From IMG/VR virus record IMGVR_UViG_3300025168_000882, positions 1-20,380 of that record: a stretch of 20,380 bases of DNA. One strand, written 5' to 3'. This DNA comes from a virus. Under the pieces are notes generated by a model. That model saw nothing but the letters and a program-made list of their open reading frames with translations. It did not search any database and was not told the origin of the DNA. A program made the position numbers and the translations under genes. Every line of letters starts with the position of its first letter. Position 1 is the stretch's first letter. Shown here in pieces: positions 1,769 to 20,292 of the stretch.

Positions 1769-1927
1769 TTACCAACCTTGTTGACTATATACTTCTCCAC
1801 CTATTTCTATTAAGTGAGAGTTACATTTACCGCAATACTTTTCTAGTGTAGTCTGTGTAGTCCATTCACCACCACACATATTACATACCTTTGCTTGTGC
1901 TATTGTTATTAATTCCATTGTCATCAT
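1769..1927 (-). CDS. Small zinc-ribbon protein, 52 residues
   Basis: Starting with ATGATG at 1927, the frame encodes 52 residues with two CxxC knuckles: VCNMCGG at about 14-20 and YCGKCNSH at about 31-38. This is a minimal zinc ribbon with a short hydrophilic C-terminal tail. The start is supported by minus-strand AGAGGTAATAATATG, in which the AGAGG Shine-Dalgarno overlaps the primase stop codon, so the gene is translationally coupled to primase. Internal ATGs at 1924 and 1918 are alternatives. Stand-alone zinc ribbons of this kind often bind nucleic acid or bridge protein complexes; the particular role is not readable from sequence. Three other such genes sit in the same block. Confidence 0.8.
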   Translation of the reverse strand: MMTMELITIAQAKVCNMCGGEWTTQTTLEKYCGKCNSHLIEIGGEVYSQQGW

Positions 1928-1931
1928 ATTA

Positions 1932-2927
1932 TTACCTCTTTACTCCATCATGCGCCCAACATGGCCCTGCATCCGTACAGCACTTAGTCGGTACGTGTTC
2001 GTAGTCTATTACACTACCAATGTGGAATCTTGATGTATGTTCATTATAGTCTCTCCAATTTAGTTTAGAGATAAAATTAACTATTGTATCTATTGAGTCT
2101 CTTCTTTGCTCTTGCGTCAAAGTCGAGGGGTGTGCAAACCATCTTAGGTTTTCCGCTAAATGTTGCACTAATGCTATCCTATGTGTATGTTTAGGGTTTT
2201 CGTGGTTCATAGCCTTTTCTAAACACGGCGGTATAGGTATTAGACCCGCATTCCCAATCTTACCATCAAACTGTGTAACAGGTATAGGTACTTCTTTTCT
2301 AGGGTTATCAGCAATCCATTTTCGGATATTGAAACCATCATTAGGTCTCTGACCTCTAAACGGGTCTAAGTGTAATAGAGCCTCTTGTGGTCTATTAGGA
2401 ATGTTATATTTTAATGGGCTTTTTATGAATGCTTCTGTATCTATATTTACAGACCATCTGCCTCTAGTGGGGTTGTAGGTGTCGGGTACACGGGTAAGTT
2501 TCTGAGGAAACCCTACACCATCTAGTGTCATCAATCCTTGAGCCATTAACCTTTGGTATCTATCTAAATGCTTAGAAATCATAGTACCCTTTACAGGTGT
2601 GTCGAAGAATTGGTGAACGTGAAATCCTCTGCCTGTAAAGACAGTTCTAACATCTCCATTGAGCCTAGCAATAAGCGTAGCAACATCTCTTTTTACATCT
2701 TCCAAATTACCACCTTCTAACATATCAAAATCCCACCATGCTCTATCCATAACTACTGATTCAATATCCATTTTCCAAGACTTTCTTTCATCCTTTCTTT
2801 CAAAAGAATACAGAGAAGTATAACACGATGCCTTACCATTTACTTTTTCGATATAAGTATCAAAGTCATTTCTACTTAGGCATTGGGTGCGGCGTAAGCC
2901 AATCTCTCTAGGAAAATCCAACGGCAT
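1932..2927 (-). CDS. Archaeo-eukaryotic primase fused to a PriL-type Fe-S C-terminal domain
   Basis: The protein (331 residues) has archaeo-eukaryotic primase (AEP) motifs: WWDFD with catalytic Asp66/Asp68, TGRGFHVH at 98-105 (nucleotide-binding sGRGxHxH motif), and LTRVPDTYN near 144-152. From about residue 232 the pattern changes to one typical of the large-subunit PriL Fe-S domain: PPCLEKAM (Cys235), an HxxR helix, HIGSVIDY, then KCC and GPCW (Cys316, 317, 323). It thus looks like catalytic PriS joined to the PriL C-terminal domain, as in the plasmid primase-polymerase PolpTN2. It would make primers for PolB. The frame is open upstream to 3038, but those 37 codons overlap a zinc-ribbon gene in another frame. 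The true start is the ATG at 2927, preceded by GGAGTGA with 5-nt spacing. Confidence 0.85.
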   Translation of the reverse strand: MPLDFPREIGLRRTQCLSRNDFDTYIEKVNGKASCYTSLYSFERKDERKSWKMDIESVVMDRAWWDFDMLEGGNLEDVKRDVATLIARLNGDVRTVFTGRGFHVHQFFDTPVKGTMISKHLDRYQRLMAQGLMTLDGVGFPQKLTRVPDTYNPTRGRWSVNIDTEAFIKSPLKYNIPNRPQEALLHLDPFRGQRPNDGFNIRKWIADNPRKEVPIPVTQFDGKIGNAGLIPIPPCLEKAMNHENPKHTHRIALVQHLAENLRWFAHPSTLTQEQRRDSIDTIVNFISKLNWRDYNEHTSRFHIGSVIDYEHVPTKCCTDAGPCWAHDGVKR

Positions 2928-2932
2928 TTTTT

Positions 2933-2939
2933 TCACTCC
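2933..2939 (-). promoter_or_regulatory. Ribosome-binding site GGAGTGA fixing the primase start
   Basis: GGAGTGA lies 5 nt before the ATG at 2927, and its TGA is also the stop codon of the upstream zinc-ribbon gene. It supports 2927 rather than the far upstream in-frame ATG at 3038. Confidence 0.75.
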
Positions 2940-3070
2940 GTTTGTTGACTTCCACATTCGCAAGCCCATATAGTAATCTCTTCGGGTGCGTTGCCCGTCT
3001 GTCCGTTTACTCTCCAAATAACTTCTGAACCTTCCCAAAGGTCATCTGAACCACACGCAATACACTTCAT
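2933..3070 (-). CDS. Small zinc-ribbon protein, 45 residues, upstream of primase
   Basis: The ATG at 3070 opens a 45-residue frame with CIACG at 3-7 and CECG at 37-40, giving a CxxC...CxC zinc ribbon around an acidic, Trp-containing middle (DDLWEGSEVIW). It starts 5 nt after the Cas4-like gene's stop and ends in GGAGTGA, which doubles as the primase ribosome-binding site. It occupies the region a naive call would give to the primase N-terminus; the cysteine spacing and fit between neighbours favour this frame. The function is unknown. Location suggests an accessory to primase or a small transcription or DNA-binding factor. Confidence 0.8.
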   Translation of the reverse strand: MKCIACGSDDLWEGSEVIWRVNGQTGNAPEEITIWACECGSQQTE

Positions 3071-3075
3071 ACCAA

Positions 3076-3924
3076 TCACAAGCCCCACTCCGTAATACCG
3101 TTTAATTCTGCCTCACAATTAAGTGAGTAGTCGCACCACATAGGACAGAAATAATCATTCCATTTCATAGGCCATTGGTGGGAAGTTAGTGAGTCAATAG
3201 TGTCATATAATGATTCCTCAAAGGAATTATAGGAACGGGATAAAAACGGCTCTAACAAAGCAAAGCCGCGCTCTGCACCTACCCACATGGTCTTGCCTCT
3301 CTTATCACCCTCTAGTAATAATTTATCATCTTCGTCATATTCATAGTCGGGTGTTACATACAGGAAATGTGTTACTTCTCCTTCATAACCTAATTTCTTT
3401 AGTAAACGTGTATAGTATACTAATTCCTTTCTAGTTCTACCTAGTTTAGACATAGACATATTACCTGTCTTTAACTCCACAAGTATTAAACCACCCGTCT
3501 TTTTGTCCCGTAGAACACCGTCTATCAGACCTACCCAAATTATTTCATGTCCTTCAAACACTTCATATACTTCGTGTTTTACTTCTACTTCCACAACATC
3601 AAACCCGCCTATATCATGCGCTATCTGATGTAGTAGAATATTTAATGAGTCAACACCCTCGTCGTCTGCTACTCCTTCTTCTCTAGCCGCTTCCATCAGC
3701 ATATCTGAACCTTCTATTAAACCTCTCTCCATTACAGTATGTATTTTAGTTCCTCTTATCATCTGTTCTGTGGCAGGGGGTCTAGGTATATCGGCTATGT
3801 AATTCCAATAAAATTGTCTAGGACACATCTTATAACCCATAAAAGATGACTTACTTATTCTTAGTATATCACCGACCATAGGGTTGTAAGAAGAGTTTTC
3901 GGACTGTTCCGACGTAGCCTTCAT
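3076..3924 (-). CDS. Cas4/RecB-like PD-(D/E)XK nuclease with four-cysteine Fe-S cluster
   Basis: With the start at 3924 (282 residues), the catalytic core is GTKIH (His62), GLIDGV (Asp135) and VELKTG (Glu150, Lys152), followed by ELVYYTRLL in the place of the family's QxxxY helix. One N-terminal cysteine in MCPRQFYW (Cys34) plus three in CPMWCDYSLNC (Cys260, 264, 270) reproduce the Fe-S arrangement of Cas4 and AddB-type nucleases. Such enzymes are ssDNA exonucleases; in viruses without CRISPR they usually serve recombination or end processing. An ATG at 3942 is also in frame and overlaps the previous gene by 14 bp. The ATG at 3924 is preferred because it has GAGTGA spaced 5 nt upstream, fused to the upstream stop. 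No cas genes are nearby. Confidence 0.85.
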   Translation of the reverse strand: MKATSEQSENSSYNPMVGDILRISKSSFMGYKMCPRQFYWNYIADIPRPPATEQMIRGTKIHTVMERGLIEGSDMLMEAAREEGVADDEGVDSLNILLHQIAHDIGGFDVVEVEVKHEVYEVFEGHEIIWVGLIDGVLRDKKTGGLILVELKTGNMSMSKLGRTRKELVYYTRLLKKLGYEGEVTHFLYVTPDYEYDEDDKLLLEGDKRGKTMWVGAERGFALLEPFLSRSYNSFEESLYDTIDSLTSHQWPMKWNDYFCPMWCDYSLNCEAELNGITEWGL

Positions 3925-3928
3925 AGTA

Positions 3929-4240
3929 TCACTCTTCTTCATTAGTTAATCCGGCATCCCAATTCTCAAAGGTAGACTGTTTATTCCCAAAAACGTCTTT
4001 TCCACAGGAAGGGCAATCGTCGCTCTTTTCTACACCTTTGATATTAGGTCTTAATAACTCACCCTGACACTCAGCACAAACTATCCTTTCCATCTTACCT
4101 TCTTCTTCTAAATGGTTGTATACCATAGTCTGTAATCTAACTATATCAGCACCCATTATCTGAAATACTTGTGCTACCTCATTTCCAAACTCGGAAATAA
4201 TTTTACTCAATTCTTCTTGCGTTACCTTCTTTTTACTCAT
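3929..4240 (-). CDS. Coiled-coil plus zinc-ribbon protein of unknown function
   Basis: The 103-residue protein has a helical, heptad-like N-terminal half (residues 1-50, EELSKIISEFGNEVAQVFQI) and a C-terminal zinc ribbon made of CAECQGE and CPSCGKD about 20 residues apart, followed by an acidic tail. The frame is open upstream to 4285, but the ATG at 4240 is chosen because it sits exactly 15 nt after the conserved 16-base promoter box and begins the plausible sequence MSKKKVTQ. It is the first gene of the unit that also encodes the Cas4-like nuclease and primase. I do not recognise the family; a nucleic-acid-binding or complex-bridging role is plausible. Confidence 0.75.
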   Translation of the reverse strand: MSKKKVTQEELSKIISEFGNEVAQVFQIMGADIVRLQTMVYNHLEEEGKMERIVCAECQGELLRPNIKGVEKSDDCPSCGKDVFGNKQSTFENWDAGLTNEEE

Positions 4241-4254
4241 ATCTTTTTCACCAC

Positions 4255-4270
4255 TGATTACGGTTATAAA
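4255..4270 (-). promoter_or_regulatory. Conserved 16-base promoter box (nuclease/primase unit)
   Basis: Minus-strand TTTATAACCGTAATCA, perfect copy. It lies 5 bp after the PolB stop, and its 3' end is 15 nt from the ATG at 4240, placing the TATA centre at about -26.5. Confidence 0.8.
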
Positions 4271-4275
4271 GATTA

Positions 4276-6513
4276 CTATACCCAAGATATTTTGGATAAA
4301 CCGTTCTTAGCATTCTCTAAAGGTTGTGTGTCCCAACCTGCTAATACATAGTAAGGAGATATTTTATTTATGATAAATCTATCTACTAATACTTTAACCC
4401 CTATACTTTTGATACCTTCAATCTCTGAGGGGTCATCGAATGCTATATACTTTCCGTTTTCATCTAGTGTTACTAAGAAGAAAGACCCTGCTCTATATCC
4501 CTTACCTAGAAACTCATTAGCCCAAGCCGCACCTGCTGATGAGCCGGATAATACTTTGTATTTAGATAAGTCCCTATCTATCTTTCCTTTCATACACAAA
4601 TCTTTCGCTTCTGTTTTACCCCCCATTACAGAGTTAATCAAATCTGATATACGCGATGTGGTAGCATCCTCAGTTTCACGGTTTAATATACCCGTAATAG
4701 TATCAAGCATAGCCTCTTTCATTACTTTAGGCATCCTACTTTGCTTCATCTCAATACCTTTAACGTAAATGTTCGGTGTATGATACTCCCCATCTGTCCA
4801 AGTTACTTTACCCGTATATCTATTCTTGGCTACCATGATTAATCTAGGACACCACTTTTCAAACTCGGCTTCCATCGGGGCTATTCTTTCGTTAATTAAC
4901 GGCAGTAATTCTAAACCTTTTTCGGGTGTAGGTATTTGACAGAACACGGAGTCTGTATGACCGTAGATGACATTAAACCCTACTCTTTGAGCCTCAACCA
5001 TTAACTCACCTAAAGACGCTCTTGAGGTGTGCGTTATAGCGGCGGCTATTTCAGGGTGATACATTCCATATCTAGCATCTCCACAGACACCATACATAGA
5101 AGCAACTAAAGTTTTAGCGGCAAACTGCATACAGTCCCACTTTCTTTTCTTATCATCATCCGAGACAAGCATTTTCATCTTAAAGATATTTCTTAAATCT
5201 GTCATCTTATCCATTTGTCTTACAAGTAATCCTTTTTTATCTTGAGAAAACTTAGTGCCGTTCCCGCAGTCCACTCCTTCGGGGTCTAAACTATCCCAAC
5301 TGATATTATACTTAGCGGCGTTACTATGATACATAGCCTTTATATCTAGGATTCCTACATTATCATATACTCCTGCCTCTACATCTAGTATTTCAGCACC
5401 CTCATAATCAACCTTAGCGAACTGTGGTTGTGTAGGTATGCGTCTATTGAAATCAGAATCAGTTAGAACTAATTGTGTAAACATCTTAGTGATGAATGGT
5501 GTCGAGCGAATATCGCACTGAACAATGTGTTGTAGGGACGTATAGTAATCCAAAGCATTGACTGCCTCATCTAGTTTAGGTAATAGTCTAACATCTTGTC
5601 TAGCGTAGTGTAAATACAAAGCCTTATCTTCCCACCAAGATTCATTATGACCTTTCTCTAATTGAATTTTCTGTTCACCTAATATTTCATAGGCTACATC
5701 ATCTAGTTTGTAGGAAGGTAGTTTTCCGTTCTTTAACTCCCATAGTTTAGATACTGCAAGCATCAAGTCTATACAGTTCCTACCTACTATCGGTTGCGCC
5801 CAATCACCGAACTCATATCTAACCTTTCTCATAGGAGAAAGAGTTAACTCTGATAGGCCACAAGCCCTACATCTTTCCATTATCTGTTTTATATCAGCAC
5901 CTACAACATACCAACCCGCTATAATATCGGGGTCTTGTCTTTTCATGTGCCGCAAAAAGTGAATGAGCATATCTCTTTCAGTAGCAAACCCCATAGCAGG
6001 TGTTTCATATTTGTATTCACCGTATTCTTTGTAAGCCTTACCCTGTCCGTCTTTAAGACCCTGCTCCGCAAGCGTCGGTTCTACAAACCATACATATTCT
6101 TTTTCGGTAAAACTATCGTAAACCACCATCACTCTCATATTGCCTGTGGTCGGAGACCACTCACAATCCATATACCATGTCCTATGATTATAGTTCTGTA
6201 TCGGTTCATTACCATCGTTGATGTAATCACCTAACACCCTATTTGCGTAAGGTATATTCGCTTCCCATGTAGTGCCGTAATAAGATAATTGCTTAACATC
6301 ATAGGGTGTAGCACAAATTATTTTCGTCAAATCTTCTCCGTATAATCCTTTGTAACCTTTTTCCTTTTTAACTGCTTCATCTATATACTCTGCATCTACA
6401 TCTGAAACAAAAGCATAAGGCCAATATCCGGTGATAGTCTTTTCATATCTAGCGCCGTTTTTTTCTCGGCCTCTGATTATAATATCTCTACCTCTACCTC
6501 TCTCGATTATCAT
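4276..6513 (-). CDS. polB: Family B DNA polymerase with 3'-5' exonuclease domain
   Basis: The 745-residue replicative polymerase shows exonuclease motifs Exo I (MDCEW, Asp116/Glu118), Exo II (GWYVVGAD, Asp207, with the usual Asn replaced by Tyr) and Exo III (YARQD, Tyr303/Asp307). The polymerase motifs follow: YEGAEI at 370, motif A DIKAMYHS (Asp390), motif B KTLVASMYG (Lys467-Gly475) and motif C YGHTDS (517-522). Motif C normally reads YGDTDS; the first Asp is His here while the second is kept. The domain order and length fit archaeal/viral PolB with a somewhat shortened N-terminus. The start ATG at 6513 overlaps the TGA of the preceding zinc-ribbon gene (ATGA). With primase, clamp, loader and helicase it forms the viral replisome. 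Confidence 0.97.
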   Translation of the reverse strand: MIIERGRGRDIIIRGREKNGARYEKTITGYWPYAFVSDVDAEYIDEAVKKEKGYKGLYGEDLTKIICATPYDVKQLSYYGTTWEANIPYANRVLGDYINDGNEPIQNYNHRTWYMDCEWSPTTGNMRVMVVYDSFTEKEYVWFVEPTLAEQGLKDGQGKAYKEYGEYKYETPAMGFATERDMLIHFLRHMKRQDPDIIAGWYVVGADIKQIMERCRACGLSELTLSPMRKVRYEFGDWAQPIVGRNCIDLMLAVSKLWELKNGKLPSYKLDDVAYEILGEQKIQLEKGHNESWWEDKALYLHYARQDVRLLPKLDEAVNALDYYTSLQHIVQCDIRSTPFITKMFTQLVLTDSDFNRRIPTQPQFAKVDYEGAEILDVEAGVYDNVGILDIKAMYHSNAAKYNISWDSLDPEGVDCGNGTKFSQDKKGLLVRQMDKMTDLRNIFKMKMLVSDDDKKRKWDCMQFAAKTLVASMYGVCGDARYGMYHPEIAAAITHTSRASLGELMVEAQRVGFNVIYGHTDSVFCQIPTPEKGLELLPLINERIAPMEAEFEKWCPRLIMVAKNRYTGKVTWTDGEYHTPNIYVKGIEMKQSRMPKVMKEAMLDTITGILNRETEDATTSRISDLINSVMGGKTEAKDLCMKGKIDRDLSKYKVLSGSSAGAAWANEFLGKGYRAGSFFLVTLDENGKYIAFDDPSEIEGIKSIGVKVLVDRFIINKISPYYVLAGWDTQPLENAKNGLSKISWV

Positions 6514-6656
6514 GCGACTACCCTATCTATTATCATGTGATTACAATTCTCACACTCATAAATATCGCCTTCACCTTCTACACTATCATAGAATAACCAA
6601 GAAAAAGTAGCGTTACATTTCTCGCAAACCATCATCGGGTGTTTTCTCTTTACCAT
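6510..6656 (-). CDS. Small zinc-ribbon protein, 48 residues, coupled to PolB
   Basis: The ATG at 6656 opens a 48-residue frame with VCEKCNATFSW at about 10-20 and YECENCNHMI at about 33-42, two CxxC knuckles separated by an acidic beta-like stretch: a compact zinc ribbon. Its start overlaps the end of the 24-codon gene upstream, and its TGA overlaps the PolB ATG, so all three are probably translated in tandem. The function is unknown. Coupling to PolB suggests a polymerase accessory or a small regulator, but this is inferred only from location. Confidence 0.8.
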   Translation of the reverse strand: MVKRKHPMMVCEKCNATFSWLFYDSVEGEGDIYECENCNHMIIDRVVA

Positions 6657-6724
6657 AATCTATCTCTCCAACAACCACAGTTTCTATCATTATATGCACC
6701 ACAGTGCAAACACTTCTGTCCCAT
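6650..6724 (-). CDS. Mini-protein with paired cysteines, 24 residues
   Basis: The ATG at 6724 begins a 24-residue frame carrying CLHCG at 5-9 and NCGCWR at 15-20, a CxxC...CxC pattern able to bind one zinc. It starts exactly 15 nt after a conserved promoter box and also has AGGAGT spaced about 8 nt upstream, so it is well placed to be translated. Its last codons overlap the start of the next zinc-ribbon gene. Alternatively it is a short leader ORF that couples ribosomes onto the downstream PolB unit. The cysteine pattern favours a real product, but at this length that is uncertain. Confidence 0.55.
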   Translation of the reverse strand: MGQKCLHCGAYNDRNCGCWRDRLW

Positions 6725-6738
6725 ATTATGAACTCCTG

Positions 6739-6754
6739 TGATTACGCTTATAAA
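6739..6754 (-). promoter_or_regulatory. Conserved 16-base promoter box (PolB unit)
   Basis: Minus-strand TTTATAAGCGTAATCA, one mismatch to the consensus, ending 15 nt before the ATG at 6724. The TAA stop of the upstream HTH gene lies inside the TATA element. Confidence 0.78.
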
Positions 6755-7023
6755 GATTTCCTTTGACCTCTTGCTCTAGTAGTAATTTCGTGTTTGTTTA
6801 ACCACGCATTGATAGCCATAGCAGTTACACCGCACATAGCACCTATCTCTGCCATAGTCTTACCATTGGCAACGTATTCATTACGCAACCATGCTTCTTC
6901 TCTATGAAGCCCTTTGTTAGACGAAGGATAAAATGCAACACTTACGTTGTATTCTTCTCCATCAATCTCAATCACTTTGCTGTTTTCACCTAATTCTATA
7001 TCTGTCAATGTTATATTTACCAT
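6748..7023 (-). CDS. Small helix-turn-helix DNA-binding protein
   Basis: The 91-residue protein has a beta-rich N-terminal half (MVNITLTDIEL, EYNVSVAFYP) and a C-terminal helix-turn-helix: EEAWLRNEYVANGKTMAEIG, then CGVTAMAINAWLNKHEITTR, matching the homeodomain-like pattern (T..EIA..CGVS...I..WL) common in phage regulators and nuclease accessory domains. A basic tail (RARGQRKSL) follows. The frame extends to a TTG at 7038, but the ATG at 7023 is preferred: it has GGAGTG about 13 nt upstream next to the clamp stop codon, and the ATAATATG start context seen elsewhere here. It is the last gene of the RecA-like/clamp unit and may be a viral transcription regulator; targets are unknown. Confidence 0.75.
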   Translation of the reverse strand: MVNITLTDIELGENSKVIEIDGEEYNVSVAFYPSSNKGLHREEAWLRNEYVANGKTMAEIGAMCGVTAMAINAWLNKHEITTRARGQRKSL

Positions 7024-7027
7024 ATTA

Positions 7028-7864
7028 TCACACTCCAATGTTACTCATTTGGAATATGAAATCGCCATCGCCTAGCGTAATCAACATAGGATAACCCATG
7101 TTTACTTCTGTGAAATCCCACAAAGCAATACTCACTTCGCTGTTAAGATTTTGGAATATGTATTCTAAGCCACCGTTGTATGTGGCTGTTATCGGGTCTG
7201 CTTCACAAGCGTCTACATCTATCATCGTAGTAGTTTTACCCTTAAGTTCTTTACCCACGCCTATTGATAATTTACCTTCTTCATAGGAAACACTATATTG
7301 GTTAAACTTCTGACCGTTCATAGAATCACATCTAAGCGCTTCATACATAGTAGTGCTATCAAGTCCCTCTAACAGAACTAAAGGTTCTATTATAGAACCG
7401 TCATTCTTAGTATAGGTTTTACTTTCCGCGTCTATCTTTTTTACTATATCGTTAGACTTACTGTGCCATTGACCGATAGTTTCGGGTGTATGTGGGAAAG
7501 CCCTAGCATCCGTGTTACCCGTAATAGTAGTCTGTTTACTACCACTTTTAATAGTAATTTTATCCCCTTTATTAATCACGGTTAGAACACCACCATGATA
7601 CTTGAGAACACCTAACAGATTATCTATATCAGTGATAGCGATACCTAAACCATTAGAGTTTACTGTTGTGCATGGTATTGATAAGTTTATCAAGGATGTA
7701 ACACCATCCTTTACTAAAGAACGACAATACAATCTATGTTTTTCCGGTATTAGTAAAACCGAATGTATCTGTGAGATACTTTTACCGTCAATTGTTTGCT
7801 TTCTTTGTGCTAGTTTTAACAACCATATTAAAGAATTGCATTCGACTGTTATAGAAGGTGGCAT
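7028..7864 (-). CDS. Divergent PCNA-like sliding clamp
   Basis: The 278-residue protein is rich in beta strands alternating with short helices, as expected of the clamp fold. Supporting segments are LLGVLKYHGGVLTVINKG followed by KITIKSGSKQTTI (centre), and a C-terminal run GGLEYIFQNLN, VSIALWDFTEV, MLITLGDGDFIFQMS, which parallels the end of PCNA and phage clamps (helix, strand, then P/M-L-x-I...YxLAP). It lacks a recognisable PIP-box partner motif of its own. Length is slightly above cellular PCNA (about 250). Its place between the RecA-like ATPase and PolB units, with an RFC loader nearby, makes the clamp assignment likely, though sequence similarity is weak. The start has GGAGTGA 4 nt upstream, fused to the previous stop. 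Confidence 0.6.
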   Translation of the reverse strand: MPPSITVECNSLIWLLKLAQRKQTIDGKSISQIHSVLLIPEKHRLYCRSLVKDGVTSLINLSIPCTTVNSNGLGIAITDIDNLLGVLKYHGGVLTVINKGDKITIKSGSKQTTITGNTDARAFPHTPETIGQWHSKSNDIVKKIDAESKTYTKNDGSIIEPLVLLEGLDSTTMYEALRCDSMNGQKFNQYSVSYEEGKLSIGVGKELKGKTTTMIDVDACEADPITATYNGGLEYIFQNLNSEVSIALWDFTEVNMGYPMLITLGDGDFIFQMSNIGV

Positions 7865-13207: not shown

Positions 13208-13606
13208 TTAACCCTTTCTAAGACAATGTAAACACATCTCTGTTTCCGGTGGAAAAACACGTATCTTCCCACAGCGACATTGATGCGCTGTCTCACGTTG
13301 CTTAGGTGTCATAACGGTTGGACTACGGGTATAAACTATTTCATCACGATGTTGAATCAATTCGCGGTCAATATCGTATACTAGATGTTTGGCTTTGATA
13401 CCAACAGCATTTTCTACTAACTCAGAACCCACCGCTATTATCTGTGGATTCTTAGAGAGAAGTGCTGAAAGGCTATGAGGTGAAGGAACAGCACGCACAT
13501 TCTTTTCGCTAGATAACTTTTGTGCTACACCCTCTTTTGTCATAGCACCATGTTCCCATAGTATATCAACTATAAGTCTACGGACTCTTCGGTTATTTGC
13601 ACTCAT
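13208..13606 (-). CDS. Winged-helix DNA-binding protein with C-terminal zinc knuckle
   Basis: The 132-residue protein begins with a winged-helix pattern (RRLIVDILWEHGAMTKEGVA, then a helix SLSALLSKNPQIIAVG as recognition helix and wing). Its last 25 residues contain CRCGK and CLHCLRKG, a CxC...CxxC zinc knuckle. This architecture fits a small transcription regulator. It starts 26-27 nt after a TATA-like TTATAA, with no Shine-Dalgarno, so it is likely leaderless. The TATA element overlaps the stop codon of the membrane-protein gene upstream. The specific target cannot be read from sequence. Confidence 0.75.
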   Translation of the reverse strand: MSANNRRVRRLIVDILWEHGAMTKEGVAQKLSSEKNVRAVPSPHSLSALLSKNPQIIAVGSELVENAVGIKAKHLVYDIDRELIQHRDEIVYTRSPTVMTPKQRETAHQCRCGKIRVFPPETEMCLHCLRKG

Positions 13607-20028: not shown

Positions 20029-20292
20029 CTATTCCGTGTCGCAAGCGTCATAATCTACATATTCATTTGCCGCTTTTGCTACATCTCTAATATTTTCGTT
20101 TGGGTGAGCATCTAGTGAATACTCAAGTATCTTTTGTGCATACACTACCGCATCCATCAATTCTTCTTTCAAATGTTGTACCCATTCGACAAAGGATAGG
20201 TCATCTCTATCCATTGTAGTACCGTATTTGGCCTCGCCTTTTTTAGCACGTTCTCTAATTTCAGCAATTACTTTTTCCTCAATACTACTCAT
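20029..20292 (-). CDS. MazG-like nucleotide pyrophosphohydrolase
   Basis: The 87-residue protein has the all-alpha NTP-pyrophosphohydrolase pattern common in phages: RAKKGEAKYGTTMDRDDLSF, then EWVQHLKEELMDAVVYAQKI with the conserved acidic EEL-x-D helix. Such enzymes hydrolyse (d)NTPs to monophosphates, and viral versions may adjust nucleotide pools or host alarmone signals. Its length is that of single-domain MazG-like proteins. The ATG overlaps the TGA of the gene entering from the right edge, with TAGGAGAG about 9 nt upstream. Confidence 0.78.
   Translation of the reverse strand: MSSIEEKVIAEIRERAKKGEAKYGTTMDRDDLSFVEWVQHLKEELMDAVVYAQKILEYSLDAHPNENIRDVAKAANEYVDYDACDTE
20036..20048 (+). repeat. 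13-bp repeat GTGTCGCAAGCGT, copy 3
   Basis: Exact third copy, at the extreme 3' end of the MazG-like gene, same reading phase, just upstream of the 20017 TATA box. Confidence 0.6.

Follow-up and report, generated by a model that had tools for sequence, protein, structure and literature searches.

Small zinc proteins of viruses infecting salt-loving archaea are already known. Haloviruses of the HF1 group (Serpecor1, Hardycor2) encode many CxxC proteins of fewer than 100 residues, none of them in the 26 kb virion region (PMC7230728). In Hardycor1, seven CxxC proteins belong to the replication and accessory region (PMC7911831). In Haloferax, small CxxC u-proteins number 49, and 9 of the 14 tested bound zinc, a property that AlphaFold is unable to decide for such proteins (PMC11241148). 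The gene set of magroviruses comprises a family B DNA polymerase (PolB), a primase, a sliding clamp, a clamp loader and a chaperonin (PMC10768690), and their virion genes run opposite to the replication genes (PMC10768690, PMC12999244); a literature search, which was not exhaustive, found no description of mini zinc genes in magroviruses. Simple ORF lists apply length cut-offs that exclude genes of fewer than 60 residues. What is new here is a set of such families, conserved, at fixed positions and with one member of only 24 residues, together with a larger candidate clamp-binding zinc protein.

The window, by which we mean the whole stretch of DNA analysed (20,380 nucleotides of the IMG/VR record IMGVR_UViG_3300025168_000882), is predicted from its gene content to be a genome fragment of a tailed virus that resembles magroviruses and infects marine archaea, viruses of this type being abundant in the ocean and uncultured. 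On its minus strand lie PolB (4276-6513; Pfam DNA_pol_B, 1.6e-27), a Cas4-like PD-(D/E)XK nuclease (3076-3942; Pfam PDDEXK_1, 1.9e-10) with four cysteines of Fe-S type that are invariant in alignment columns (C..CxxxCxxxxxC), an ERCC4-type nuclease with HhH (1042-1731; Pfam ERCC4, 2.6e-9, and HHH_5, 1e-9), an RFC-like AAA protein and a chaperonin. PolB, the RFC-like AAA protein, the chaperonin and ERCC4 are Pfam matches, whereas the primase is called from motifs only and the clamp, a candidate too, matched no Pfam family. The archaeo-eukaryotic-type primase candidate (1932-2927, minus strand) matched no Pfam or PDB profile; it keeps WWDFD and TGRGFHVHQ, and its catalytic-type residues, of the DxD and sxH motifs, are invariant in 18 aligned homologues. 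The sliding-clamp candidate (7028-7864, minus strand) has a conserved position in the block, a best PHROG match of unknown function and a weak match to a polymerase processivity factor, and an HTH protein (6748-7023, minus strand) is encoded directly before the mini genes on the PolB side. The archaeal host is a prediction, a search of host-genome contigs having found no relative of the block's PolB. With halovirus PolB, the window PolB shares only about 23-25% identity, and a search of GenBank phage DNA with the window gave no match.

Among these genes, the original prediction placed four short ones that a 60-residue cut-off had missed, and all four stand. On the minus strand, they encode the Cys4 mini-proteins z52 (52 residues; 1769-1927, ATG at 1927; CNMC..CGKC), z51 (45 residues from an ATG; 2933-3070; CIAC..CEC; an in-frame GTG at 3088 would yield 51 residues), z48 (48 residues; 6510-6656; CEKC..CENC) and z24 (24 residues; 6650-6724; CLHC..CGC). 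The paired CxxC/CxC motifs ascribed to them are present in each: among 191 ORFs of 20-60 residues in the window, two such pairs occur in exactly these four, whereas dinucleotide shuffles (n = 200) gave a mean of 0.27 such ORFs, a maximum of 3 and never 4.

The mini genes had also been described as coupled to primase or PolB. The overlaps and fused ribosome sites behind that description exist: z24 and z48 overlap by 7 nt (ATGGTAA), z48 overlaps the PolB start by 4 nt (ATGA), the z51 stop lies inside the ribosome site of the primase (GGAGTGA; primase ATG at 2927), and the primase stop lies inside that of z52 (GAGGTAA), which starts 5 nt past it. A z51-primase overlap was rejected: the primase starts at 2927 (MPLDFP), the TTG at 3038 being a mechanical call. 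All neighbour pairs of the operon are similarly tightly packed, so the junctions single out no partner for the mini genes. Each of them may well be translated along with its neighbour through the overlapping or fused start and stop sites that we see.

Related loci were collected from IMG/VR by PolB search (33, then 80; L numbers below), and homologues were counted by iterated profile search with the window included. Profile searches in all sense frames gave a conserved block order of ATPase, clamp candidate, HTH protein, z24, z48, PolB, z118 (the product of 3929-4240, discussed below), Cas4-like nuclease, z51, primase, z52 and ERCC4, in which z24, z48 and z52 are present in some loci only. The block is otherwise rigid, with insertions confined to few spots: whole genes are inserted between z118 and the Cas4-like gene in L026 and L006, and between PolB and z118 in L044, L053, L020, L022 and L023, the L044/L053 insert presumably being a PAPS-reductase-type protein. 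At the PolB C-terminus (window 4276-4320, minus strand), GL.....W[VLI] is kept in most relatives and is possibly a clamp-binding end.

A search of related viral contigs was one of the checks that the original prediction proposed. It found 57 loci with z51, in the slot flanked by the Cas4-like nuclease and the primase (with exactly one match per contig in the 15 long contigs that have one), z48 at 39 loci directly upstream of PolB and in 4 further contigs, z52 at 32 loci in the primase-ERCC4 slot, and z24 in the window position at 6 loci, the six closest. Both z51 and z118 occur in nearly every relative and reach down to 49% PolB identity, z48 being found at 73% or above and z52 at 69% or above. 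Frame, cysteines and position are kept in up to 57 contigs across PolB identities of 49-94%. The cysteines are invariant in the z48, z52 and z24 families, as are C15, C18, C32, C35 and a C-terminal GW in z52 (nine-row alignment), CxxC..CxxCN in the z48 alignment, and C5, C8, C16, C18, YNDR and WRDR in z24; in z51, three of the four are invariant and the second nearly so, with Asp instead in L076-L083. Loss of frame and cysteines where the flanking genes are kept, the pattern expected of a wrong prediction, is thus not what the related contigs display.

The second proposed check, at synonymous sites, points the same way. We restricted it to near relatives (L001, L003 and L004), as pairwise dN/dS of distant pairs is noisy in genes this short. 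Synonymous change exceeded nonsynonymous change in all four genes (Fisher p 1.6e-10 to 3.1e-2): 15.0/26.5 against 3.0/108.5 for z51 versus L004, 18.5/25.3 against 17.5/118.7 for z48 versus L001, 8.0/11.7 against 8.0/60.3 for z24 versus L004, and 10.5/28.7 against 7.5/127.3 for z52 versus L003. The other two frames showed no comparable synonymous excess and nearly always contained stops. All four genes are under purifying selection, in the annotated frame only. Genes this short, missed by a 60-residue cut-off, might be suspected to be spurious, chance products of gaps and alternative frames, but the excess over shuffles, the conservation and the frame-specific selection led us to reject this for all four, and we regard it as extremely improbable; it is least strongly ruled out for z24, with its 24 codons, yet z24 recurs in a second context.

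Judging from sequence, each mini-protein is probably a single domain folded around one metal ion. In this they resemble the small zinc proteins of Haloferax (PMC10716476, PMC11241148), which have fewer than 70 residues, one domain and two CxxC pairs; the latter are cellular and encoded on the host chromosome, whereas the mini genes are viral and lie within a replication operon. None of the four matched Pfam above curated cut-offs or PHROG below E 0.006. A link between z51 and z48 by phmmer was not taken as a single family, the probability by profile comparison being 9.6%, and they are kept apart. The AlphaFold2 model of z51 is a three-stranded zinc ribbon (pLDDT 92). With its four cysteines, three strands and a weak, near full-length profile match to the archaeal RPB9 ribbon 1qyp (E 0.019, 44 of 50 positions), z51 resembles TFIIS/RPB9-type ribbons, from which it differs in ending CxCG where theirs end CxxCG. 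Neither the profile match nor the best fold match (E 1.2) is significant.

The z51 match to RPB9, its best at full length, is one of several observations in favour of a role in early transcription, in which these proteins would be regulatory zinc ribbons that attach to viral promoters or to the RNA polymerase of the host and happen to be encoded in the early operon. Another comes from two distant relatives, L097 (4618-5004) and L101 (1630-1950), in which the HTH gene immediately upstream of PolB codes for a protein with a zinc ribbon fused to its N-terminus; the N-terminal part of the window protein contains no Cys. The joining of a zinc ribbon to the HTH protein is the sole fusion seen, none being to PolB or primase. 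A third is a winged-helix-like window protein (13208-13606, minus strand) that ends in a C-terminal CxC..CxxC pair and has no Pfam match above cut-off. Precedents exist: haloarchaea regulate transcription and stress by small zinc proteins (PMC7230728), and TFS4 inhibits the archaeal RNA polymerase through zinc ribbons (PMC9501531). Against this stand the lack of significance of the RPB9 match, the fold search without a relative, and the fixed places of z48, z51 and z118 within the replication block. We consider a purely regulatory role possible but, on the whole, unlikely.

That zinc motifs recur through the block, as had been claimed, is borne out well beyond it. Long relatives have two modules on opposite strands (told apart by strand, their virion genes being unannotated), and in six long related contigs we counted 32 mini four-Cys ORFs along 180 kb of PolB strand but just 4 along 186 kb of the opposite one (0.178 versus 0.022 per kb; p 8e-7), the module in this count being defined by strand and not by annotated virion genes. 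The ORFs are scattered along the whole early/replication strand, beyond the surroundings of PolB and primase. In such uneven, strand-based placement, the four mini-proteins resemble those of HF1-group haloviruses and Hardycor1, with which they also share a length below 100 residues, at least one CxxC and an origin in archaeal tailed viruses outside the virion module; z118, at 103 residues, is just above this size, and HF1-group viruses too have a family B polymerase. The likeness is one of size, motif and placement. What sets the present families apart is their marine, magrovirus-like setting, their fixed replication-block slots across dozens of contigs and members of down to 24 residues. The halovirus precedent explains the overall pattern without a special replisome set.

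Slots that lack one mini family often contain an unrelated mini zinc protein. The primase-ERCC4 slot, where z52 is missing, often carries a second family (CPxC..GFxExHGS..CxNC..SCCGDxxC), found at ten loci (L017 14885-15043, L054, L074, L084, L087, L091, L094, L097, L098 and L101); L017 and L054 carry z52 as well, and L083 and L088 have singleton mini zinc proteins there. The pre-PolB slot of L076-L083 carries CKKC..CYRC-like proteins, and L092 and L093 have no z51 call between Cas4 and primase, yet have a four-Cys ORF there. In three contigs (L170-L172), z24 lies far from PolB before another gene, which in L170/L171 we take to be MazG-like; a similar window ORF (20029-20292) has no Pfam match, which bears on that label. 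A specific role of z24 as a PolB-linked part was rejected on the basis of this second context.

Two readings of the slots deserve mention. Because the slots before PolB, before the primase and after it usually hold some mini zinc protein of variable family, these proteins might be interchangeable subunits with which the viral polymerase and primase work and which z118 would tether to the clamp, a possibility to which we give little credence. Alternatively, the mini-proteins could serve host takeover or counter-defence, one per slot and with fast turnover in an arms race, without any part in replication. Small early viral genes often have such functions, and both the unrelated families in the same slots and the two locations of z24 would fit. 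The presence of z51 and z118 in nearly every relative does not, nor does the slow change of z51 among close relatives, unlike typical arms-race genes; there was also no significant PHROG match to counter-defence proteins (a Lar-like family reached only E 0.19). We judge this explanation improbable.

The protein most suggestive of the replisome is z118, a 103-residue product (3929-4240, minus strand; listed in the ORF table as 3929-4285, from a TTG) that combines a long helix, a Cys4 ribbon and a PIP-box-like tail, QSTFENW. Profile search found it at 61 loci. A tail of the form Qxx[FILVM]xx[WFY] lies in the last 28 residues of 50 of 55 distinct homologues and is absent from five distant ones, and other families of the block have 0-2 instances each. 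Compared with the canonical PIP box, Qxx[hydrophobic]xx[aromatic][aromatic], the tail fits the first seven positions, the eighth being Asp or another residue that is not aromatic. The same motif stands at the end of a few further ORFs from these viruses (L118 ...GRQTTLGEF, L110 ...RQETLEDWGF), which is what a clamp-binding signal would predict. The AlphaFold2 model has helices at 8-46 and, in the tail, at 91-95. Its ribbon comes nearest to the N-terminal zinc domain of archaeal MCM, both by profile (best match, E 0.014) and by fold (top seven matches all MCM, E 0.068, probability 0.97), neither being significant; the match covers only about 37 residues, and z118 differs from that domain in being a separate protein with a long helix and a tail. 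Sub-threshold matches of the zinc part include the HVO_0758 Pfam family (E 0.0041) and an HVO_2753-like chain (E 0.14). The z118 fold also occurs in viral proteins of BFVD (E 9e-8), so homologues are already deposited, nameless in the tables used. With its helix, MCM-like ribbon and PIP-box-like tail, z118 is, by this indirect evidence from sequence and models, the strongest replisome candidate of the block and possibly a clamp-tethered factor; positive, if indirect, evidence for a replisome link comes from z118 only.

Taken together, the reading that we put forward, and to which we assign an even chance, is that the four genuine Cys4 mini-genes of the early operon encode small docking modules, with z118 as the true replisome adaptor on the clamp. 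The mini-proteins would form part of a repertoire of small zinc proteins encoded on the early/replication strand and nearly absent from the other strand, and their targets in the early phase would be DNA or the viral proteins of replication or transcription. Of the four, z48 (before PolB) and z51 (before the primase) would be the best replisome candidates, and z24 a free-standing module. The long helix of z118 would probably serve self-association, with the zinc ribbon beside it, and its C-terminal tail would tie it to the viral sliding clamp. That only nine of the 14 similar Haloferax proteins bound zinc (PMC11241148) counts against docking modules of this kind. The fixed positions and z118 lead us to favour a replication role slightly over one in early transcription. 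The original prediction of "replisome or transcription adaptors" thus survives in part: the genes are real and the zinc motifs recur, but the link to PolB or primase as partners is weakened by the operon-wide packing, the strand-wide spread of mini genes, the second location of z24 and the sole fusion being with the HTH protein.

Annotation of such viruses should therefore retain short four-Cys ORFs. Any of these proteins that proved to bind PolB, primase or the clamp would count as an overlooked component of the replisome; action on RNA polymerase would make them early regulators.
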